64,000 bases of DNA from Pseudomonas bijieensis (GTDB taxonomy: Bacteria > Pseudomonadota > Gammaproteobacteria > Pseudomonadales > Pseudomonadaceae). Shown here one piece after another: positions 18,333-57,195 of this stretch. The stretch lies in NCBI RefSeq assembly GCF_013347965.1, contig NZ_CP048810.1:3657501-3721500 (forward strand). Direction: 5' to 3'. A model generated the notes under the pieces. It saw nothing but the letters and a program-made list of their open reading frames with translations, was not told the origin of the DNA and made no database searches. The translations under genes and the position numbers were made by a program. How positions within the stretch are numbered: the first letter of the stretch is position 1; the number at the start of each line of letters is the position of its first letter.

Positions 18333-18509
18333 TTACGGACTCTCTAATATGCATTGCGTTCAATCACTCCGGTCCGACGGACGTCCGGATGGCATTCGCG
18401 ACGAAAAAAAATGCTTATAATGCCCAGCGTTTTTTTCGCTTTGTTGCAAGCACGGGTCCATCCCTGCACCTGGCGCCTTTTTCATTCTTTGCCTGGATAT
18501 CCAAAAGCC

Positions 18510-20957
18510 TTGATTCGTCTGCTGAAATTTTTCGGATGGTCCATCGTCGCCGTTTTCTGCGGACTGCTCTTGGGCCTGAGCGGCGCCTTCCTTTACCTTA
18601 GTCCGGGATTGCCGTCCGTGGAGGCGCTGAGAAGTATTCAGTTGCAGATTCCTCTGCGGGTGTACAGCAGCGATAACAAGCTGATCGCCGAATTTGGCGA
18701 AATGCGCCGCACACCGATCCGTTTCGCCGACATTCCCCCCAATTTCATCAATGCGTTACTAAGTGCTGAAGACGATAACTTCGCCAACCACTATGGCGTC
18801 GATCCCGGCAGCCTGATGCGCGCCGCCAGCCAGTTGGTCAAGAGCGGGCACATCCAGTCCGGCGGTAGCACCATCACCATGCAGGTGGCCAAGAACTTCT
18901 TCCTGACCAGCGAGCGCAGCTTCTCGCGCAAGACCACCGAGATCCTCCTGGCCCTGCAAATCGAGCGACAGCTGACCAAGGATGAAATCCTCGAGCTGTA
19001 CGTGAACAAGATTTACCTGGGCAACCGCGCCTACGGCATCGAGGCGGCCGCACAGGTGTACTACGGCAAGTCGATCCGCGATGTGAGCCTGGCGCAGATG
19101 GCGATGATCGCCGGCCTGCCCAAGGCACCGTCACGCTTCAACCCGCTGGCCAACCCGGCGCGCAGCAAGGAGCGTCGCGACTGGATCCTGGGGCGCATGT
19201 ACAAGCTCGGCAAGATCAGCGAGGCCGACTACACCGCAGCGATCAATGAACCGCTGAACGCCAGCTATCACGTACCGACCCCGGAAGTGAACGCCCCGTA
19301 TATCGCCGAGATGGCCCGTGCCGAGATGGTCGGGCGCTATGGCAGCGACGCTTATACCGAAGGTTTCCGCGTGACCACCACGGTACCGAGCAACTTGCAG
19401 GAAATGGCCAACACCGCCCTGCACGAGGGCCTGATGACCTACGACCAGCGCCACGGCTACCGCGGCCCTGAATCGCGCCTGCCGGGCAAGACCAAGGAAG
19501 CCTGGGCCCTGGAGTTGACCAAGCAACGCACCATCAGCAGCCTGGAGCCGGCGATCGTCACCTCGGTGGACAAGGACGGCATCAAGGTGCTGACCCGCAA
19601 CGGCGAGCTGGAAGAGCATGTGGCCTGGGACACCATGAAATGGGCCCGTCCGTTCCTCAATACCAACAGCATGGGCGCCAACCCACGACAGCCATCCGAC
19701 GTGGCCCAGGTCGGCGACCTGATCCGCGTCCAGCGCCAGGCGGACAACACCCTCAAGTTCAGCCAGATCCCGGCCGCCCAGGGCGCGCTGGTGTCCCTCG
19801 ACCCGCAGGACGGTGCCATCCGTTCGCTGGTGGGTGGTTTCGCCTTCGAGCAGAGCAACTACAACCGGGCGTTGCAGGCCAAGCGCCAGCCGGGCTCGAG
19901 CTTCAAGCCGTTCGTCTACAGCGCCGCCCTGGATAACGGCTACACCGCCGCCAGCCTGGTGAACGATGCGCCGATCGTGTTCGTCGATGAGTACCTGGAC
20001 AAGGTCTGGCGGCCGAAGAACGATACCAATACATTCCTCGGCCCGATTCGCCTGCGTGAGGCGCTGTACAAATCCCGCAACCTGGTATCGATCCGCCTGT
20101 TGCAGGCACTGGGCGTGGACCGCACCATCGACTACATCAGCAAGTTCGGCTTCAACAAGCAGGACTTGCCGCGCAACCTGTCCCTGGCCCTGGGCACCGC
20201 GACCCTGACGCCGATGGAAATCGCCACGGGCTGGAGTACGTTCGCCAACGGCGGGTACAAGATCACCCCGTACATCATCGACAAGATCGAAAGCCGCAAC
20301 GGCGAGACGCTGTTCGTTGCCAACCCGCCACGCGTGCCCACGGGCGAGCAGGCCAGCGATGGCCTCGCCGCGCCGTCCACCGAGACGTTCACGGTCAATG
20401 CGACGCCGGGCGAAGCCACGACGGCCCCAGGCCTGCCGCAAGCGCCCGCCGTCGCGGAGCGCATTATCGATGGCCGCACCACCTATATCCTCAACAGCAT
20501 GCTCCAGGACGTGATCAAGCTCGGCACCGGTCGCCGCGCACTGGCCCTGGGCCGCACCGACCTGGCGGGCAAGACCGGTACCACCAACGAATCCAAGGAC
20601 GCCTGGTTCTCCGGCTACAACGCCAATTACGTGACCACCGTCTGGACCGGTTTCGACCAGCCCGAAAGCCTGGGCCGCCGTGAGTTCGGTGGCACCGTGG
20701 CGCTGCCGATCTGGATGAGCTACATGGGTGCCGCCCTCAAGGACAAACCGCCTCACACCCAGCCGGAACCGGAAGGCATCCTCAGCCTGCGGGTCGACCC
20801 GGTCAGTGGTCGCGCAGCCACGCCAGGTACCCCGGGCGCGTACTTCGAACTGTTCAAGAGCGAAGACACGCCACCGTCGGTCAACGAGCTGGGCAACGGC
20901 GCTGCGCCGGGCAGCCCGCTGCCGGCGGACGAGGCGGCGCCGATCGATCTGTTCTGA
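18510..20957 (+). CDS. ponA: Penicillin-binding protein 1A (bifunctional transglycosylase/transpeptidase)
   Basis: An 815-aa class A PBP that polymerises and cross-links peptidoglycan. It has an N-terminal transmembrane helix (about 7-30), a GT51 transglycosylase domain (about 55-230, with EDDNFANHYG and the QVAKNFFL region) and an OB-like insert (about 320-420). The transpeptidase has SSFKPF (SxxK serine), SRN (SxN) and KTGTTNESKD (KTGT). The start is assigned to a TTG at 18510, since homologues begin with IRLLKFF; the frame is open 52 codons further upstream without family-like sequence. A strong terminator follows. Confidence 0.95.
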   Translation: MIRLLKFFGWSIVAVFCGLLLGLSGAFLYLSPGLPSVEALRSIQLQIPLRVYSSDNKLIAEFGEMRRTPIRFADIPPNFINALLSAEDDNFANHYGVDPGSLMRAASQLVKSGHIQSGGSTITMQVAKNFFLTSERSFSRKTTEILLALQIERQLTKDEILELYVNKIYLGNRAYGIEAAAQVYYGKSIRDVSLAQMAMIAGLPKAPSRFNPLANPARSKERRDWILGRMYKLGKISEADYTAAINEPLNASYHVPTPEVNAPYIAEMARAEMVGRYGSDAYTEGFRVTTTVPSNLQEMANTALHEGLMTYDQRHGYRGPESRLPGKTKEAWALELTKQRTISSLEPAIVTSVDKDGIKVLTRNGELEEHVAWDTMKWARPFLNTNSMGANPRQPSDVAQVGDLIRVQRQADNTLKFSQIPAAQGALVSLDPQDGAIRSLVGGFAFEQSNYNRALQAKRQPGSSFKPFVYSAALDNGYTAASLVNDAPIVFVDEYLDKVWRPKNDTNTFLGPIRLREALYKSRNLVSIRLLQALGVDRTIDYISKFGFNKQDLPRNLSLALGTATLTPMEIATGWSTFANGGYKITPYIIDKIESRNGETLFVANPPRVPTGEQASDGLAAPSTETFTVNATPGEATTAPGLPQAPAVAERIIDGRTTYILNSMLQDVIKLGTGRRALALGRTDLAGKTGTTNESKDAWFSGYNANYVTTVWTGFDQPESLGRREFGGTVALPIWMSYMGAALKDKPPHTQPEPEGILSLRVDPVSGRAATPGTPGAYFELFKSEDTPPSVNELGNGAAPGSPLPADEAAPIDLF

Positions 20958-21149: not shown

Positions 21150-21230
21150 GGGTTCTGACTTCTGGAAAGATTTCTAACCACCCACAACCCCACAGGATCG
21201 AGTAGGAGACGGATTTACATCCGCCGTCCT

Positions 21231-21272
21231 CTCACACCACCGTACATACGGTTCCGTATACGGCGGTTCAGG
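21231..21272 (-). ncRNA. Group II intron domain V catalytic hairpin
   Basis: On the minus strand ACCGCCGTA pairs with TACGGTGGT around an upper stem TACGG/CCGTA with a GAA-type tip, the layout of domain V. The lower strand contains CGC in place of the AGC triad of IIA/IIB introns. Confidence 0.75.
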
Positions 21273-22658
21273 CTATGCGGTTAAGCCAGTTTATCGTATC
21301 CAGTATCGAGACCAGTCCGAGTCGATTCCACAGCTTCTTCGGTAGCGCCTGATTCACATGTGGCGCTCCGGAGTTCCACCACGGGCCTCGGCCATTGAAC
21401 GCTGATTTACAGGCGCGTCCTTCGTCGAGCCCCAGGCGCATCAGGTTGCGCGCCCTCGTAGAGGGCTGCTTCCATTGCCGCCAGATGACACAACGAAGTT
21501 TGCGTCTCACCCAACCATCCAACTCCTCAAGTGGTCGTTTGCTCTGACTGAGCTTGAAGTAGCCAGCCCAACCTCGCACTACGGGTTTATCCGCTCGATG
21601 ACGTTCGCCATCTTGTGACCCCGTACTCCGCGCAGCAGCTCTCTGAGTCGGTCGCGCAAGCGACCCAGACTCATCGTTGCCACTTTCAGCTTCGGCTGTT
21701 TGTGCCAGCTCATCCCATAGCCCAAGTAATCACAGGTCCAAGGCCGTGCCACACGGCTCTTTTCCCGGTTCACCGTCAGTTTAAGACGCTGATTCAGGAA
21801 ACGCTCAACACTGGTCATGACCCGTTCGCCTGCACGATGACTGCGTACATAAATGTTCGCATCGTCTGCATAGCGCACGAAGCGATGGCCCCGCCGTTCC
21901 AGCTCGCGGTCGAGTTCATTAAGCAGGATGTTCGACAGCAACGGCGAGAGCGGGCCGCCTTGCGGAGTCCCTTCCTGCCGTCGGCTGGCGATGCCACCCG
22001 ACATGATCCCGGCTTCGAGGTAACGGCGGATTAGCCTGAGCACTCGCTTGTCTTCGACTTGGCGCTCTATATGGGCCATCAGAACGTCGTGGTTAACACG
22101 ATCAAAGAACTTCTCAAGATCAAGTTCCACGCACCAACGCTGACCCGCCGCCACGTGGGCACGGGCTGTTTCGATGGCTTGATGAGCGCTTCTGCCCGGA
22201 CGAAAACCGTAGCTGTAGTCCGAAAACAGGGGGTCGAAAATCGGCGTGAGCTGTTGCAGCAAGGCTTGTTGGATCAGACGATCCACGACGTTGGGAATAC
22301 TCAACTGCCGAGTTCCACCTTTGGGTTTGGGGATGTCAACGGCGCGCACACCTTGCGGCTGGTACTCACCGGCCAGCAGTCGGGCTTTGAGGATCGGCCA
22401 ATACTGTTTCACGTAGCCTGCCAATTCGGCGACCGTCATGCCATCGGCACCCGGCGCGCCCTTGTTACTGACCACGCGTTGATACGCACGTCTGAGGTTG
22501 GCGGGTGCGAGCACCCGTTCCATCAGCGTGTCCAGCTCCGCGTTCGTCCACACCACAGACGCCGCCGATGTCTGCGCACTGCCAGCCACAAACCCCGGAT
22601 TCCGTCCGGGACTTGGGGTTACAGCCCTCTTGTGGAGAGATTTCTGCTTTTTCGACAT
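21268..22658 (-). pseudogene. ltrA: Group II intron reverse transcriptase/maturase, frameshifted
   Basis: The first frame (22658-21579) encodes 359 aa with the RT fingers and palm. It shows SYGFRPGRSAHQAI, QGGPLSPLLSN and the catalytic FVRYADD, and stops right after VIERINP. The next frame (21579-21268) continues with RGWAGYFKLSQ, the maturase X/thumb domain, and a C-terminal region ending NWLNRIA. One missing base in the AACCCGTAGTG stretch at about 21580-21586 explains the break: with it, RINP-(V)V-RGWAGY reads through. As written, the protein would lack the maturase domain, so the intron may be unable to move or splice by itself. A sequencing error cannot be excluded. Confidence 0.88.
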
Positions 22659-23120
22659 TCGACGAGACTCTGACGCCTACTGGCGGCATAACCTGTTCGG
22701 CCCTTGGTGACTGGGTTACTCGTCACTTACTACGGCCTCGGCTGACTTCTGCACGCTCATCCCGTCGCCTCTCGACGCCCGGTAGCACAGTGGCAAACGT
22801 GCAGATCTCCCAGGGTAATTCGCGCGACCTTCCTGCTTATGCCTGTCGGATCTACGTCACAGCGTTCCGTGCAAGTATTGGGCTTTGAAGATATTGGCCT
22901 TCTTACCCCGCTGCGCCGCCTCTATCCGCTTCCTGTTCGTCAGGCCAGCATTTTGCCTCGGGCTTCCTTCAGATTCGCGGTCACCCGCGACACCCTTGCC
23001 TCTGGCTAACACTTCCCCTTGCCGGGTGTGTAGAGGACTTTCACCTCCAAGTCACCAGCGTGGCCACCATAGCCAAACTGGTTGCGCTTCGCGCAACGCG
23101 CCATGCCTGGCGCACCAATA

Positions 23121-48864: not shown

Positions 48865-50781
48865 ATGTTCAGTTGGCTGACCGAAAAGCTGGGAAACGTA
48901 AGCGTCAATCGCAAACTGGGTTTCGGTTTTGGCCTGGTACTGCTCATGACCCTCCTGAGCACCTTCGCGGGCTGGAACAGCCTGGGCAGCGTGATCAGCC
49001 GCGCTGACAAGCAGGCGTCTATCGCCAGTCTCAATGAGTTGGCCAAGGATTTGCGAGTCGCCAGTCTCGACTATGAGATGCGGCGTGGCGAACAGGGACC
49101 CGCTGTCGTCAGCGAGTTCTTGGGCAAGCTTCAGGAAAGCATACAAGCTGCCCTCAAACAGTTTGTACGTCCGGCAGACCAGGAGTTGCTCAATCAGCAA
49201 CTGGCTATCCTCGACGAGTACAAACGCGCCTTCGGCGACCTGACCCAGGCGACGCAGAACCGCGAATCGGCCCGATCCAAGCTTGGCGCCAACGCCGACA
49301 ATGCCGTGGCCAAAGTGAAGGAGGTCGAAAATGCCTTGCGCCAAGGCGACAGTGTTGCGCAATTCGACAGTGTGATCGAGCTGAGCAAACTGCTCCAGCA
49401 AGCGCGCTACCAGGTTCGCGGCTACACCTACAGTGGCAAGGCCGATGCCGAGCAACCGGCGCTGGAGGCCATCGATAGTGTCTTGAAAAACCTTGAAAGC
49501 CTGCCGGGCAAACTGCCGGAACAACACACCGCCAACCTGCAACAAGCCACTGAATCGATGAAGGCCTATCGTGCCGCCGTCAGCCAGTTCCGCGATTCGC
49601 AGGTGGCCAGCGCATCAGCCCTCAAGAGAATGGTCGACCAGGGCGCCCGTTTGAATGACCTGAACAACCATTTGACTACCTCGCAGATTGAGAAACGCGA
49701 CCTGGAGACGACGCATGCGAAAGAAGTGCTGATCATCGTCACCATCCTGGCATTGGCGTTTGGCCTGCTGGCGGCCTGGATCATTACCCGGCAGATCGTT
49801 GTTCCACTGCAGCAGACCTTGGTTGCCGTTGAACGTGTCGCCTCCGGCGACTTGAGCCATAACCTGGTGGTCACCCGCCGTGACGATATGGGCCAATTAC
49901 AAGGCAGCCTACAGCGAATGGTGATCAGCCTGCGGCAACTGATCGGAGGCATCGGCGAAGGCGTTACGCAAATCGCCAGCGCCGCTGAACAGCTCTCCGC
50001 CGTCACCGAGCAGACCAGCGCCGGGGTCAACAGCCAGAAAGTGGAAACAGACCAGGTCGCCACCGCCATGCACGAAATGACCGCCACGGTGCAGGAAGTG
50101 GCGCGCAACGCCGAAGAAGCCTCCGAAGCGGCCGTCGCTGCTGACCAACAGGCTCGCGAAGGCGAAAAAGTCGTGGGCGAAGCCATTGCCCAGATCGAAC
50201 GCCTGTCCAAGGAAGTGGGCAATTCCACCGAAGCGATGGGCCATCTCAAGCGCGAGAGCGACAAGATCGGCAGCGTGCTGGATGTGATCAAGTCCGTGGC
50301 CCAGCAAACCAACCTGCTGGCCCTCAACGCGGCGATCGAGGCGGCCCGTGCCGGTGAAGCCGGACGTGGGTTCGCGGTGGTGGCCGACGAGGTTCGCAGC
50401 CTGGCCCAGCGCACCCAGAAGTCCACCGAAGAAATCGAAGAGCTTATCCTCGGCCTGCAATCGGGCACCGAACAGGTCGCGACCACCCTGGACAACAGCC
50501 GCAACCTGACCGATAGCAGCGTCGAATTGACCCGCCGCGCCGGTGGCTCGCTGGAAAACATCACCCGTACGGTCTCGGCAATCCAGTCGATGAACCAACA
50601 GATCGCCGCCGCCGCCGAGCAGCAGAGTGCCGTGGCCGAAGAGATCAACCGCAGCGTCGTGAACGTTCGCGATGTGTCCGAACAGACGGCTTCTTCCAGC
50701 GAAGAAACCGCCGCCTCCAGTGCCGAACTGGCACGGCTGGGGGTTCATTTGCAGACGCTGGTAGGACGCTTCAAGGTCTGA
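48865..50781 (+). CDS. Methyl-accepting chemotaxis protein with HBM sensor domain (copy 2)
   Basis: A 638-aa paralogue of copy 1 with the same layout (TM1 about 16-40, HBM sensor to ~285, TM2, HAMP, MA domain). The signalling half is nearly identical to copies 1 and 3, while the sensor half has diverged. The first-helix segment reads DLRVASLDY, keeping the first arginine but with Ser in place of the second, and the helix around 90-105 is changed ([14 protein letters not shown]). A different ligand or affinity is likely. The leader CAGGGAGTATCAGC is conserved. Confidence 0.93.
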
Positions 50782-50922: not shown

Positions 50923-52840
50923 ATGTTCCGGTGGCTTGCCCAGGGTCTGGGAAACGTAGGCGTTAATCGCAAACTCGGCGCAGGCTTCGGCCTGGTGCTG
51001 TTCCTCACCTTGATGATTGCATTCACCGGCTGGTCCGGCCTGGGCAATGTCATCAGTCGGGGCGACAAACTGGGCTTCATTGCCAGTCTCAACGACTTGA
51101 GCAAAGACTTGAACCTGGCCAGCATCGACTACAACACCACGCGGGGCGAGAAAGGACCGCAAGCGGTCAACGACCTGCTGGGCAAGCTCGAAGAGGGCCT
51201 GAAGACTGCTCGCCAGTTGATCGAACAACCGGCCGACGTCGCGCTGATCGATGCGCAACTGGCCGCCGTCGCCGAATACAAGGGCGCCTTCGCCCAGATG
51301 ACCCGCGCCACCGTCAACCGCGAAGATGCCCGTAGCAAACTCGGCGCCAGCGCCGACAACGCCGTGGCCCGCGTCGCTGAAGTTGAAAAGTTGTTGCTGC
51401 AAGCCGGCGACATCACCCCGTTCAACAGCGTGGTCACCCTGAGCAAGGCCATCCAGCAAGCCCGCTACCAGGTTCGTGGCTACACCTACAGCGGCAAGAG
51501 CGAAGCCCAGCAACCGGCCCTCGATGCCATCGACACCGTCCTCAAACTGCTCGCGCGCCTGCCAGACCAATTGCCCCAGGAACACGCCGCCGACCTGCAG
51601 CAGGCCAGCGACTCGTTCAATCTCTATCGCGCGGCGGTCGCCCAATTCCGCGACTCGCAAATCGACAACGCTGCGGCCCTCCAGCGCATGACCGAGCAAG
51701 GTCAAATACTGATCGACGCCAGCCAGAAGCTGACCGTATCCCAGACCGCCGTGCGTGACCACGACGCCGCCCAAGCCAAGACGGTCCTGATCGTAGCGGC
51801 CGCCCTGGCGCTGCTGTTTGGCGTGATCGCCGCCCTGTTCATCACCCGGCAGATCGTCGGCCCGCTCGGCCAGACCTTGAAGGTTGCCGAACGCGTGGCC
51901 GCCGGTGACCTGACCCACAACCTGACCTCCGAGCGTCGCGACGAACTCGGCCAGCTGCAACGCGCCATGCAAAGCATGACCGTGGGCCTGCGGCAGTTGA
52001 TCGGTGGCATCAGCGAAGGTGTGACCCAGATCGCCAGCGCCGCCGAACAGCTCTCGGCCGTGACCGAACAGACCAGCGCCGGGGTCAACAGCCAGAAAGT
52101 GGAAACCGACCAGGTCGCCACCGCCATGCACGAAATGACCGCCACCGTGCAAGAAGTCGCACGCAACGCCGAGGAAGCTTCCGAAGCCGCCGTCGCTGCC
52201 GACCAACAGGCCCGCGAGGGTGACAAAGTGGTTGGCGAGGCCATTGCCCAGATCGAACGCCTGGCTAAGGAAGTCGGCAACTCCACCGCCGCCATGGGCG
52301 ACTTGAAGCGTGAAAGCGACAAGATCGGCAGCGTCCTGGACGTGATCAAGTCCGTGGCTCAGCAGACCAACCTGCTAGCCCTCAACGCCGCCATCGAAGC
52401 CGCCCGCGCCGGCGAGGCCGGACGTGGTTTTGCGGTGGTGGCCGATGAAGTCCGCAGCTTGGCCCAGCGTACCCAGAAGTCCACCGAAGAAATCGCAGAA
52501 CTGATTGTCGGCTTGCAAAGCGGCACCGAACAAGTCGCGACCATCATGGACAACAGCCGCAGCCTGACCGACAGCAGCGTCGAACTGACCCGCCGCGCGG
52601 GGGGCTCGCTGGAGAACATTACTCGCACGGTTTCGGCGATCCAGTCGATGAACCAGCAGATCGCCGCGGCGGCGGAGCAGCAGAGTGCGGTGGCTGAGGA
52701 GATCAACCGTAGTGTGCTGAATGTGCGTGATGTGTCGGAGCAGACGGCGTCGTCCAGTGAGAAGACTGCCGCTTCGAGTGCTGAGCTGGCGCGGTTGGGG
52801 GGTTCATTTGCAGACGTTGGTGGGGCGGTTCCGGGTCTAG
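50923..52840 (+). CDS. Methyl-accepting chemotaxis protein with HBM sensor domain (copy 3), frameshifted at its 3' end
   Basis: A third tandem receptor. The sensor segment reads DLNLASIDY, so both arginines of copy 1 are replaced (Asn64, Ser67). HAMP and MA domains match the other copies. Near the end, a run of six G at 52797-52802 holds one G more than in copies 1 and 2. With five G the protein would finish [13 protein letters not shown] at the TAG 52838-52840 (638 aa). As written, the frame leaves the receptor after AELARLGG and runs on to 53340 through repeat DNA, giving an 805-residue reading frame with a meaningless tail. Core signalling regions are unaffected. Confidence 0.9.
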
Positions 52841-52967
52841 CAGGCCTACGCAAAACCTGTGGCGAGGGAGCTTGCTCCCGCTTGAGTGCGCAGCGCTCAC
52901 AATATTGCAGGGAGCAGCGGCTGCGCCATCTTGAGCTGGTGGTCTGTGGGTATAGGTATTCTTGGGT

Positions 52968-53841
52968 GTATATCCGTTATTTAGGTAACGGCTACTTAGG
53001 GTTCCGCCCTTACGGCGGCTCACTTTTGAAAAGCGCAAAAGTAAGCAAAACGCTTCTGCTTCTGCCCCACCACTCGGCACCTCGCCTAGGCTCGGTGTGC
53101 CCTCACTCCGGCATTGCTCCGTGGGCCGCCGCGAAGGGCCATCCATGGCCCAGCGCGGCTAACCCGGCATCCATGCCGGGTTGCCCACTGCGCAATGCCT
53201 GCGTTCGGCCAGCGTGGTTTACGGGGCGCCGAGATCAACGTCCACCGCGAGGCGGCCTGATAGCCGACCTGGCTCTTGGTAAAACCGCGTTCCTCCTGTG
53301 GGAGCGGGCTTGTTCGCAAAGACCATGTCACAGCCAATGAAGATATCGAATGTGCTGGCCTCTCACCGTTGATCTTCAGCGGGCACAACATTCATGTACA
53401 CCGCAAAGCCATTGTGGGAGCGAGCTTGCTCGCGAAGGCGGTGCCACAGTGGATGAAGATGTCGGATGTGGTGGCCTCATCGCGAGCAGGCTCGCTCCCA
53501 CAGGGGAGTGCGGTCACCCAGAACCAGGTCGGCTACTAGGCCGCCTCGCGGTGGACGTTGATCTCGGCGCCCCGTTAACCACGATGGCCGAACGCAGGCA
53601 TTGTGGAGTGGGCATCCCGGCATGGATGCCGGGATAGCCGCGCTGGGCCATGGATGGCCCTTCGCGGCGGGCCCACGGAGCAATGCCGGAGTGAGGGCAT
53701 GCCGAGCCTAAGCGAGGCACCGAGTGGTGGGGCAGGAGCGTTTTGCTTACTTTTGACTGGGCCGGCTTCCGGGCTTCTCAAAAGTGAGCCGCTGTAAGAG
53801 CGGAACCGTCAGCAGCCGTTACCTAAATAACGGATATACAC
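52968..53841. repeat. Large inverted repeat with ~310-bp arms
   Basis: The left arm (52968-53274) and right arm (53523-53841) are imperfect reverse complements over about 310 bases. Shared landmarks include CCGTTATTTAGGTAACGG, CACTTTTGA with AAGTAAGCAAAACGCT, CCATCCATGGCCCAGCGCGG, the inner palindrome CCGGCATCCATGCCGG and GAGATCAACGTCCACCGCGA. The arms carry small indels and substitutions, so they are old or independently inserted copies. The 248-base loop holds REP sequences. Similar blocks occur in intergenic regions of other fluorescent pseudomonads as far as I know. No transposase is present. Confidence 0.85.
53413..53502. repeat. REPIN in the loop of the large inverted repeat
   Basis: TGTGGGAGCGAGCTTGCTCG and CGAGCAGGCTCGCTCCCACA arms with a ~45-base spacer. 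A further degenerate REP (TGTGGGAGCGGGCTTGTTCGC) lies upstream at about 53297-53317. Confidence 0.83.
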
Positions 53842-53954
53842 ACAAAAATCCCCCTCCCACAATCCGTCATCCCAAGGCTACGGCGCCTTGCGCCATTGCC
53901 TACAACTACGCCAGAATCCGCCGGCTTGTACGCCTTAGGCCTGGGCTTTAACGT

Positions 53955-54191
53955 TTGCAGGTCGCTGTCAGTTCAGCGATCGGGTTTAGCAGCCTGAACA
54001 ATCCTAGACGTACGCTCTCCACATGCGTGAGCAGGCTTCAGCGCCTGCACATCTATGTCATGGCGGTTGTGCGTGGGAGACCTTCGGGTCTGCCGGGTTC
54101 TAGGGTCCCGGTCTGCTAACCCGCGTACAGTCGCCACCCTTCTCGTTTAGCAGCGATATCTGGCGGCTCCATTACCCTAGGAGCGTCAACT
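53955..54191 (+). promoter_or_regulatory. Highly structured leader with alternative pairings upstream of the 111-aa gene
   Basis: Local hairpins: TCGCTG/CAGCGA (53962-53979), GCAGGC/GCCTGC (54031-54048), AGACC-TTCG-GGTCT (54078-54091) and CCGGG/CCCGG (54093-54111). A middle strand CTGCTAACCC (54113-54122) can pair with GGGTTTAGCAG upstream (53982-53992) or with GTTTAGCAG downstream (54145-54153). CGCCA (54132-54136) can likewise pair with TGGCG upstream (54061-54065) or downstream (54161-54165). GTACGC (54010-54015) matches GCGTAC (54123-54128), which crosses the first long-range helix as a pseudoknot. The arrangement looks like a switching RNA or a folded DNA site. The class is unknown to me. 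Confidence 0.6.
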
Positions 54192-54527
54192 ATGTACAAG
54201 GTCACACCCAACCCACCAGAACCAGAAACCGACCCCAAGAAACTCCAGGAAGCCGCTGATCGCACGCTCGATTACTACCTGAACCCCAAACAGGCCAAAT
54301 CCGAGAATAAACCCTCGCCAGGCCAACTCTTCACCGTCGTCGACGGCATCGACACCGAAAGCCTGCTGGCCAACCTCAGCGAAACCCTGGCCTCAGCCGA
54401 TGCCATGGTCAGCGACCTTGCGTTCGACCTGAAAGGCACGCGACGCCATGTTGCCCTTGGCATCCTACAACTGATCGAACTGAGTGGATTGTTGGCGAAT
54501 CGGCTGTTGGACAGCGTCAACCCCTAG
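54192..54527 (+). CDS. Small protein of unknown function (DUF6124/DUF3077-like)
   Basis: A 111-aa cytosolic protein with no signal peptide or membrane helix. The N-terminal PNPPEPETDPKKLQEAADRTLDYYLNP segment is followed by LFTVVDGIDTESLLANLSETLASADAMVSDLAFDL. The C-terminal helix ends ELSGLLANRLLDSVNP. This pattern is familiar from many small pseudomonad proteins with one or more copies per genome, often with a similar 5' leader. A TAGGAG site sits 8 bases before the ATG. Function unknown; the family name is from memory. Confidence 0.8.
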   Translation: MYKVTPNPPEPETDPKKLQEAADRTLDYYLNPKQAKSENKPSPGQLFTVVDGIDTESLLANLSETLASADAMVSDLAFDLKGTRRHVALGILQLIELSGLLANRLLDSVNP

Positions 54528-54582
54528 ACCATAGCTCCCTCGCCACAAAGTCCGGGGCCATCGGTAAAAAAATGCACCCAAC

Positions 54583-54619
54583 AAAAAGCCCCGCTTCCTT
54601 CCAGAAGCGGGGCTTTTTT
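54583..54619. terminator. Bidirectional terminator between the small gene and opgH
   Basis: AAAAAGCCCCGCTTC and GAAGCGGGGCTTTTT form a 15-bp perfect stem with a 6-base loop, U-rich on both strands. Confidence 0.93.
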
Positions 54620-54624
54620 GCGTA

Positions 54625-57195
54625 TCAGGCCACTTGAGGCTGCACGCTCACCGGCTGTAGCGGCAGCAGCGGTGCATGGGGATCGGCCTTGACCGATTCA
54701 CGCCACGCAGCCAGCCACTCGGGATGCGCCTCGCTCCAAACCTGCTCGTGCAGGCGGGACAAGGCCACCGGATCGCTCAGCAGTGCCAGTCGCTCGGCGT
54801 TGCTGAGACCGGCAGGACCGGCCTTCAAGGCGTGACGAACACGTTCGACCCGCAGCCATTCAATCGGCTCGGCCTGGCCGTGACGCGAAGTGGCCAGGGC
54901 ATACGCCAAGGCATTCTGTTGTGGATCGACCACTGCCCGGATGAAGCCGTCGTTCAGCGCGTGCCAACGGTTTTCATGGGTGTACTGGTCCGTCGACAGC
55001 AGTTCCTGCGGCGGTGCGTATTCCTCAGGGATCAGGAACAGGCTCTCATCACGGGACTTCAAGCCCAGGCCCACGCGACTGGAGATCACCGACACCGGGA
55101 TCGACAGCATCAGCGAACCGACGATCGGCACCAGCCACCACAGGAAGCTCGGGTTCAGCCAGATAACCAGCAAGGCCCAGAAGAAGCCCAGCAGGGTCTG
55201 CGGACCGTGGCGCTTGACCGCTTCGCTCCAGGGCGTGGAGTCGTCGTCACGTTGTGGCGAGTTCCAGGTCGCGGCCCAGCCCAGGAACGCGGCGAGCACG
55301 AAGCGGGTGTGGAAAATCATCCGCACCGGCGCCAGCAACATGGAGAACAACATCTCCAGCAGCATCGACAGCGTCACCTTGAACTTGCCACCGAACTCCT
55401 TCGCACCCTTGGCCCAGATCAGCACGATGCTCAGCAGCTTGGGCAGGAACAGCAGCACGATGGTCGTCGAGAACAAGGCGATGGCCTTGTCCGGATGCCA
55501 TTGCGGCCACAGCGGATAAAGCTGGCGTGGTTCGAGGAAGTATTGCGGTTCCATCAGGGTGTTCACCGCCAGCAGCGCAGTGGAGAGCACCAGAAAGAAG
55601 AACCACAGCGGCGCCGACAGGTAGGACATCACGCCCGTCAGGAACACCGCACGGTGCACCGGGTGCATGCCCTTGACCAGGAACAGCCTGAAGTTCATCA
55701 GGTTGCCGTGGCACCAGCGACGGTCACGCTTGAGTTCGTCCAGCAGGTTCGGCGGCAGCTCTTCGTAGCTGCCCGGCAGGTCATAGGCAATCCACACGCC
55801 CCAGCCGGCACGGCGCATCAGCGCTGCTTCGACGAAGTCGTGGGACAGGATCGCACCGGCGAACGCGCCTTTACCGGGCAACGGCGCCAGGGCGCAGTGC
55901 TCGATAAACGGTTTCATGCGGATGATCGCGTTGTGGCCCCAGTAGTGGGATTCGCCCAACTGCCAGAAGTGCAGGCCGGCGGTGAACAGCGGACCGTACA
56001 CCCGGGTGGCGAACTGCTGCATGCGCGCATACAGCGTGTCCATGCCCGAGGCACGTGGCGCTGTCTGGATGATGCCAGCGTCCGGAGTGGCTTCCATCAG
56101 GCGCACCAGGCTGGTCAGGCACGTGCCGCTCATGACGCTGTCGGCGTCGAGTACGACCATGTACTTGTAGTCGCTGCCCCAACGACGGCAGAAGTCGTCG
56201 AGGTTGCCACTCTTGCGCTTCACGCGACGGCGACGGCGGCGATAGAAGATCTTGCCGAAGCCGCCGGCTTCACGGCAGACGTCCAGCCAGGCCTGTTGTT
56301 CGGCGACGCAGATGTCGGTTTCGTTACTGTCGCTGAGGACGAAGAAGTCGAAGCGATCCAGGTCACCGGTAGCGGCCACCGACTCGAACGTCGCGCGCAA
56401 ACCGGCAAATACCCGTGGCACGTCTTCGTTGCAGATCGGCATTACCAGCGCGGTGCGGGCGTCCTTGGGAATCGGCTCGTTGCCGGCGCTGGCACCAGAG
56501 ATCCGGTACTTGTCGTGGCCGGTGAGCAATTCGAGGAAGCCCATCAGCGCCGTCCAGAAACCTGCCGACACCCAGCAGAACAGGATCCCGAACAGAATCA
56601 GGATGCTGGTTTGCAGCGCATAAGGCAGCACTTGCGTGGCGGTCTGCGATAGCGGTTGGTGCAGGACTTCGTCCAGGTCCACCAGCGACCAGCCCTGGTA
56701 CGGCATGATGCCTTTCATGTACCAGCCGGCGACGATGGTCTGGCCGAGCATCAATATCAGCAGGATGTAGCGACGGGTCGAACCCACGGTGCGCCAGCGT
56801 GCATGAGGCAGCACGCGCTCATCCTTGGGCGGCTTCGGCGGGTTGGTACGACCGGTCAGGCGCCGCCAGGCGCGCACCAGGATATTGGTGCGCCACGGCT
56901 CCGGCACGACCTTGGTCCGACGGATCGGCGGCGTCGCCTTGAGGCACACCCGACCACTGGCGTCGAGCCCGAGCATTTCGGCTTCTTCGAGCTCTTCGGC
57001 GGTGCTCAGGGTCAGTCGGCGGCCTACCGAGGCTTGCGCCGCCTCGGCGGGCGCGTCGAAGGTCGAAGACGACAGGCGTTCATGCAATTCGCTGAAGGAC
57101 TTGCAGCCCGCCAGTTCGGCGCGCTGCTCGTCGGTCATGGGCAAATGGGCCAGGTACTCGCTGAGTGTCTCTGGCTGTACTGGAGTATTACTCAT
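54625..57195 (-). CDS. opgH: Glucans biosynthesis glucosyltransferase H
   Basis: An 856-aa inner-membrane GT2 transferase that builds the beta-1,2-glucan backbone of osmoregulated periplasmic glucans from UDP-glucose. It has several transmembrane helices (near 145-170, 195-220, 515-560 and 575-700). The cytoplasmic catalytic domain lies in between, with [10 protein letters not shown] (DxD), [15 protein letters not shown] and the DRRWCHGN (RxxRW-type) motif. The ATG lies inside the end of opgG, an 8-base overlap. Length matches the family. Confidence 0.96.

Follow-up and report, generated by a model that had tools for sequence, protein, structure and literature searches.

The window, that is, the whole stretch of 64,000 nucleotides of the Pseudomonas bijieensis chromosome that was analysed, carries a small gene whose product matches the DUF6124 family. 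Its neighbours, recognised by eye, are presumably a chemoreceptor-like gene, opgH and opgG. An initial annotation had singled out the leader of the small gene as a structured, switch-like element of an undescribed system. The leader is indeed structured, with a minimum free energy of -97.1 kcal/mol compared to -81.9 +/- 4.9 kcal/mol for 200 shuffled sequences (z -3.13), one of which folded equally well. It is not undescribed, however. An Rfam scan placed a C4 antisense RNA (RF01695) at 54056-54141 with 82.3 bits (cut-off 45), far above chance (E = 1.7e-16, region search), and the match covers the model in full (positions 1-87 of 87). A c4-a1b1 element (RF03163), the a1 target of C4, was found at 53948-54000 with 50.8 bits (cut-off 46.7). 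Since both families exceed their cut-offs and follow the order of the c4-icd-ant locus of phage P1, the initial view of an undescribed system does not hold. The gene is preceded by a phage regulatory RNA of a described kind together with its targets, and not by an undescribed riboswitch. Judged by its sequence, the leader is almost certainly a full C4 antisense-RNA module of the type found in phages P1 and P7, residing in a bacterial chromosome. Both families are listed by Weinberg et al. 2010 (PMC2864571), and P1 C4 is summarised in PMC8198154 and PMC12197685. In the open-licence PMC literature, we found no paper linking C4 with DUF6124 or DUF3077; a single paper naming DUF3077 came up.

Table 1. 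Features of the C4 module and its surroundings (positions refer to the window).
Feature	Position	Strand	Remarks
Conserved block CTTGCGCCATTGCCTACAACTACGCCAGAATCCGCCGGCTTGTACGCC upstream of the leader	53887-53934	+	Fixed place in 18 of the 32 C4 loci of the genome
-35-like TTGTAC	53926-53931	+	Putative; from conserved block and spacing
-10-like TAACGT	53949-53954	+	Putative; 17 bases after the -35-like sequence, just before the a1 hairpin
a1 target element (RF03163)	53948-54000	+	Two hairpins, a1 in the second loop; 50.8 bits
a1 GTTTAGCAG	53984-53992	+	Upstream target of a'
b1 AATCCTAGAC	54000-54009	+	Upstream target of b'; -10.4 kcal/mol
Spacer hairpin between b1 and C4	54021-54058	+	No U run; absent from the other same-site allele
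C4 antisense RNA (RF01695), stems P1-P3	54056-54141	+	82.3 bits; covariation over 32 copies
Probable mature C4, 77 bases, GG start	54062-54138	+	By analogy with the 77-base c4 annotated in P1
b' TTCTAGGGT in the loop of P3	54098-54106	+	Antisense to the Shine-Dalgarno region
a' CTGCTAACCC, shared central strand	54113-54122	+	
a2 GTTTAGCAG	54145-54153	+	Downstream target of a'
TGGCGGC	54161-54167	+	Can pair with the P1 3' strand instead; none of 5000 permutations as good
b2 TACCCTAGGAGCG	54173-54185	+	Target of b', -13.6 kcal/mol; includes Shine-Dalgarno AGGAG (54179-54183)
DUF6124 gene, 111 aa	54192-54527	+	PF19619, 101.3 bits; C-terminal helical hairpin predicted
Terminator-like hairpin common to the gene and its convergent neighbour	54586-54619		Seen in the sequence

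The module runs in the order a1, b1, C4, a2, b2 over the ribosome site and ATG, as in the annotated P1 locus, and directly precedes the DUF6124 gene (Table 1). The a' and b' strands of C4 are complementary to a1 and b1 upstream and to a2 and b2 downstream, with b2 at the ribosome site. The initial annotation had proposed a central strand with two possible partners for each of its parts, and part of this proposal stands. The stretch GGTTTAGCAG (53983-53992) is 90% complementary to CTGCTAACCC, GTTTAGCAGC is repeated exactly at 54145-54154, and a1 and a2 are identical; duplicated partners do surround one shared complement, and a' can pair with either of them. For the other part of the strand, the downstream TGGCG (54161-54165) was supported as a rival partner of the P1 3' strand over 32 genomic copies (cognate -13.70 versus permuted -12.44 kcal/mol, 0 of 5000 permutations as good), although the longest exact match amounts to only 0-4 bases in several of the 32. 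The upstream TGGCG (54061-54065), in contrast, is no separate target, as it forms the 5' strand of the C4 closing stem P1 in the model alignment. A crossing helix GTACGC/GCGTAC found no support either: cognate pairing gave -8.74 compared to -8.88 for permuted partners, 3584 of 5000 permutations were as good, and the helix occurs in the alleles of the window and L284 but is missing from the others shown. L284 carries the allele of the window, its position at the same site being unconfirmed. What had been overlooked is b' in the loop of P3, which pairs with b1 and b2.

Strong folding and alternative pairings had also suggested a ligand-sensing riboswitch or a folded DNA recognition site. We consider this extremely unlikely, since C4 and c4-a1b1 explain the conserved structure, none of the four Rfam matches to the region at E up to 1 is a riboswitch family, and the varying positions are a', b', a1, b1, a2 and b2, as would be expected of antisense pairing rather than of a ligand pocket.

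The likeness to the C4 RNAs of P1 and P7 comprises the model score, the three stems, the places of a' and b', the target order, the GG start and the 77-base core. In the P1 record, a1, b1, a 77-base c4, a2, b2 and the start of icd are annotated in this order with spacing similar to that in the window, and the P1 sequence likewise has a' positioned after P3 and b' in the loop of P3. The start of b2 is 18 bases before the icd start in P1 and 18-19 bases before the gene start here. The P1 record labels b1 as putative; P1 C4 lacks the complete 8-base complement of b1 but contains that of b2. The locus differs from P1/P7 c4-icd-ant (immI) in that the gene belongs to DUF6124 instead of being icd or ant, and it lies outside a phage immunity operon.

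The -10 of the P1 promoter P1c4 sits just before the a1 hairpin, the same relative place as the -10-like sequence of the window. A sigma-70 consensus scan of the leader region returned no promoter site; from the conserved upstream sequence and the P1 precedent, a putative promoter can be placed at approximately 53926-53954. A block of 45-48 bases just upstream of this promoter (53887-53934 in the window) is common to 18 of the 32 C4 loci of the genome, the window's included. It is conserved far beyond the needs of a plain promoter and might be a regulator site or a trace of module duplication. A terminator scan of 53800-54700 gave no terminator-like site and also missed the hairpin at 54586-54619, which is present as well in L248, a locus without the C4 module. 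T-runs between b1 and C4 were seen in some other C4 copies of the genome.

The P. bijieensis genome (6.73 Mb, one contig) contains 33 C4 matches, 32 of which are above the cut-off; 14 control genomes contained none. The 33rd match (39.3 bits, 2558290) was taken for a REP-like hairpin and excluded from every count that follows. On the same strand, 26 of the 32 C4s precede a DUF6124 (24) or DUF3077 (2) gene, with the domain 157-222 bases after C4, and the genome holds 29 DUF6124 and 2 DUF3077 matches in total. The proteins downstream of c01, c07, c14, c18 and c21 form one separate BLAST cluster, the ORF assigned to c01 being a heuristic choice, and c22 is followed by a gene with a DUF6124-like start only. 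In having many chromosomal C4-like RNAs with variable a', P. bijieensis resembles Acinetobacter baumannii AB5075 with its Group 1 sRNAs; PMC5320573 reports numerous C4-like sRNAs from Acinetobacter, together with the roles of a' and b'. Unlike the AB5075 sRNAs, whose targets are described there as unknown, each copy here has a matched gene in cis. A further difference from P1 and P7 is that a single chromosome harbours 32 copies, among which 16 a' codes occur.

For a' and b', a simple duplex program was used to calculate duplex energies with the flanks of the same copy and of other copies, and the values were compared with 5000 permutations. Permutations do not fully remove relatedness; comparisons within groups and at the same site are the better controls. 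All four pairings favoured the cognate partner over the 32 copies, with none of the 5000 permutations as good: a' gave -12.57 (permuted -8.30) kcal/mol upstream and -9.13 (-7.05) downstream, and b' gave -11.88 (-9.50) upstream and -13.54 (-8.57) downstream. The a' strands fall into 16 different six-base codes. Within groups sharing an a' code (23 loci, 7 groups), b' retained its preference both downstream (-14.24 versus -10.01) and upstream (-12.17 versus -10.20), again with 0 of 5000 permutations as good. When a' and b' were combined, the own downstream target ranked among the top three in 26 of 32 copies and first in 20, so crosstalk is to be expected. The rank of the own upstream region for b' was 31st for c06 and 24th for c21, and b1 of these two copies therefore looks weak or lost.

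The C4 helices themselves covary. Over the 32 copies, 95.4% of the cells are paired, the three stems show compensatory changes, and 17 of the 27 pairs are changed on both sides compared to 8.5 in shuffles (0 of 500 as good on each of five measures), the shuffles not removing relatedness among the copies. Stem P3 is the weakest, with 88.8% of cells paired and changes on both sides in 1 of 5 pairs. In 68 distinct elements parsed from named Pseudomonas genomes, none of 2000 permutations was as good as the cognate arrangement for any of the four pairings. Covariation, which the initial annotation had named as the test of its helices, is present.

A query from the neighbour gene that we take, by eye, to be opgH was found in 51 of 59 genomes. 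Among the 30 loci examined, C4 is at the site in three (this genome, L247 and L249) and the site is empty in 27; L248, for example, retains the neighbour (91%) without the module. The named loci L282, L285 and L286 have a module at the same opgH-side site, and L247 may duplicate the strain of one of them. The b' loop at this site is of the CTAGGG type in the window and of the CCTTGATT type in L247, L282, L285 and L286, in which b1 and b2 are altered to match. In L249, a', a1 and a2 have also all changed together. This one site thus shows compensated pairing changes between species.

Part of the gene family appears to be decaying, since the genes of three of the 32 copies, c08 (6255624), c22 (1971915) and c28 (4371696), look frame-broken or are out of frame with the leader start. 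These genes, the empty sites in 27 of 30 relatives and the loss of C4 from some copies could be taken to mean that the modules are decaying leftovers of phage DNA that has multiplied and no longer serves a role. At the window site, however, the gene is intact, a', b', a1, b1, a2 and b2 all match, relatives carry compensated changes, and the copy numbers of C4 and DUF6124 move together over 119 genomes. We regard a mere leftover as highly improbable.

Within the genus, C4 was detected in 110 of 119 genomes (109 above the cut-off), with at least 33 copies in the richest genome, and DUF6124 in 95. Copy numbers of the two correlate (Spearman 0.886, C4 counts being taken from the best 33 matches per genome). 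None of the 119 genomes has DUF6124 without C4, and 15 have C4 without DUF6124. Across the phylum, where the best 14 matches per genome were scored, C4 was found in 42 of 299 genomes, ten of them of the same genus or family. In named Pseudomonas genomes, 75 of the 80 related gene loci retained out of 126 have C4 upstream (nhmmer); the 68 parsed elements mentioned above are these 75 minus six that could not be parsed by patterns and one duplicate. The initial annotation was right that similar leaders stand in front of related small genes in pseudomonads.

On viral contigs, 116 stretches matched the C4 core pattern, and 82 C4s were parsed from 80 of them. The a' code TCGCCAA occurs in 52 of 61 viral C4s before other genes and in 0 of 21 before DUF6124 or DUF3077 (hand count, with heuristic ORF choice and cluster labels given by eye). 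In this genome, three of 32 C4s carry TCGCCAA, none before DUF6124 or DUF3077. The a' codes look diverse mainly in the DUF6124/DUF3077 families, the viral set being a biased test in that it was picked by the exact core pattern and includes chromosomal flanks. No DUF6124 match was obtained in plasmids, and one phage record, EU982300, contains the domain. At L055, L067, L078 and L086 and at viral loci such as L142, C4 stands before proteins of 52-69 residues with an HRAMA motif; the one tested had no Pfam match.

These data bear on the idea that the chromosomal C4s are mainly immunity RNAs directed against phages with C4-controlled genes, with DUF6124 as a passenger. C4 is described as the immunity RNA of P1 and P7, many viral contigs carry C4, and phage targeting is one of two roles proposed in PMC5320573 for the Acinetobacter C4-like RNAs. 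However, phage-type genes go with almost one a' code, which is rare in this genome and not found before its DUF6124 and DUF3077 genes, and b' tracks the local gene and not a common phage target. A primary immunity role is therefore improbable.

We are rather confident that this C4-type antisense RNA module serves to silence translation of the downstream DUF6124 gene; on grounds of homology, repression of DUF6124 by C4 is very likely. A single transcript starting just before the a1 hairpin would contain a1, b1, C4, a2, b2 and DUF6124. C4 would fold into its three stems and, by homology, would probably be cut out as a 77-base RNA, as by RNase P in P1. Covariation suggests that a' would then pair with a2 and the P3-loop b' with b2; because the b':b2 pairing covers the Shine-Dalgarno sequence, ribosomes would be excluded. 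Alternatively, a' and b' may pair with a1 and b1 in the 5' part. Such pairing would either keep C4 occupied or affect the nascent transcript in the manner of P4 and Gifsy-1 IsrK. Pairing of the 3' strand of stem P1 with TGGCGGC after a2 may open C4, giving the two-state behaviour sensed in the initial annotation. Given 16 a' codes and locus-specific b' loops, each C4 would have its own gene as the main target and would in part also affect code-mates, among them family genes with a target hairpin but without C4.

The same RNA might act mainly through another step, with the a1/b1 part as the active control and the a2/b2 pairing as secondary. There are precedents in PMC4825925, where the C4-like CI RNA of P4 is described as pairing with seqA and stopping transcription, and the Gifsy-1 IsrK, a short a1/b1 RNA, as binding a long mRNA and turning translation on. 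Like Gifsy-1 IsrK/STnc1160 and P4 seqA-CI-seqC, the module has two partners round an antisense core in one transcript with alternative structures. The a':a1 pairing was rated the strongest of the four (-12.57 kcal/mol) and ranks its own target first in 25 of 32 copies, the presumed promoter is followed directly by the a1 hairpin, a weak match to the IsrK model (RF01394) overlaps a1, and family genes without C4 retain an a1-type hairpin. Against this stand the score of that match (23.4 bits), which is far below the cut-off of 50, and the region between b1 and C4 in the window, where no intrinsic terminator of the IsrK kind is evident. Moreover, the clearest cognate preference is that of b' over the Shine-Dalgarno sequence, indicating translation as the controlled step. 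Control mainly through a1/b1 is hence conceivable but rather unlikely.

Several family genes have the target hairpin alone, unlike the known setting of c4-a1b1 (RF03163). Three DUF6124 genes (2670466, 3545497, 5517916) lack C4 but carry an a1-type hairpin immediately ahead of the start, as do three genes of the family linked to c01, c07 and c14 (3282308, 2497366 and the truncated 6138104). The latter three carry GTTTGGCGA, the code of c01, c07 and c14, with -14.0 to -15.7 kcal/mol as the best of the 32; their b elements match poorly, except for 6138104 with c01. For 2670466, the best fit is c08, and for 3545497 and 5517916 no convincing a' partner was found among the 32 C4s. The hairpin abuts the ribosome site, without C4, in L277 and L278 (3282308 and 2497366), L276 (6138104) and L050, L051 and L052. 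Of the 80 related loci, five are without C4, and four of these have the same hairpin types, so such states persist between species; similar C4-less forms recur in L347, L353, L359 and L360. Genes of this kind are candidate trans targets. At L304, an a2-like GTTTAGTAG and the ribosome-site region are kept upstream of the match and no C4 was found; it seems that C4 was lost here and the downstream target retained.

We tentatively propose that Pseudomonas chromosomes may hold a network of dozens of specificity-coded C4s that have departed from phage immunity. Each C4 would be tuned to its own DUF6124-type gene by a two-part a'/b' code, diverging codes would insulate siblings, codes would be replaceable as alleles at one site, comparable to the heteroimmunity of P1 and P7, and C4-less genes would be controlled in trans by code-mates. 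This is plausible, if somewhat short of probable, and its clearest case would be the GTTTGGCGA genes that match three C4s elsewhere in the genome. If true, a phage immunity RNA would have given rise to an extensive regulatory family on the chromosomes of one of the best-studied bacterial genera. Should the pairing code work as covariation suggests, a single genome would provide about 32 naturally occurring versions of the same antisense switch, together with targets that match and targets that do not, making specificity, crosstalk and insulation of antisense RNAs directly measurable.

DUF6124 and DUF3077 are families with almost no literature, and the link to C4 would provide a handle on both. 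The DUF6124 protein of the window has 723 relatives, and the named ones among the 120 listed are from Pseudomonas. Its AlphaFold2 model (mean pLDDT 76.5; blocks within 61-100 over 90) consists of three helices with a confident C-terminal hairpin. A fold search with this model returned helical hairpins only (best E 0.81), and a sequence search of solved structures gave one match at E 0.91, which is not meaningful. A toxin, defence or phage family was considered and rejected, as there was no PHROGs or PADLOC match and the best NCBIfam match (0.12) is not meaningful. Profile comparison detected no relation to P1 Icd, which has no Pfam match above the cut-off; the function of Icd can therefore not be transferred to DUF6124.

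Elsewhere in the window, TwoAYGGAY RNA (RF01731) matches lie upstream of the C4 module at 53610-53674 (+) and 53123-53185 (-), group II intron matches (RF02001, RF01998, RF00029) at 21197-22990 (-), and an asponA antisense RNA (RF02812) match at 18488-18782 (-; 122.7 bits, cut-off 113). The ORFs 48865-50781 and 50923-53340, which by eye we take to be chemoreceptor-like, adjoin each other and share long near-identical stretches, and the second has an unusual C-terminal extension.
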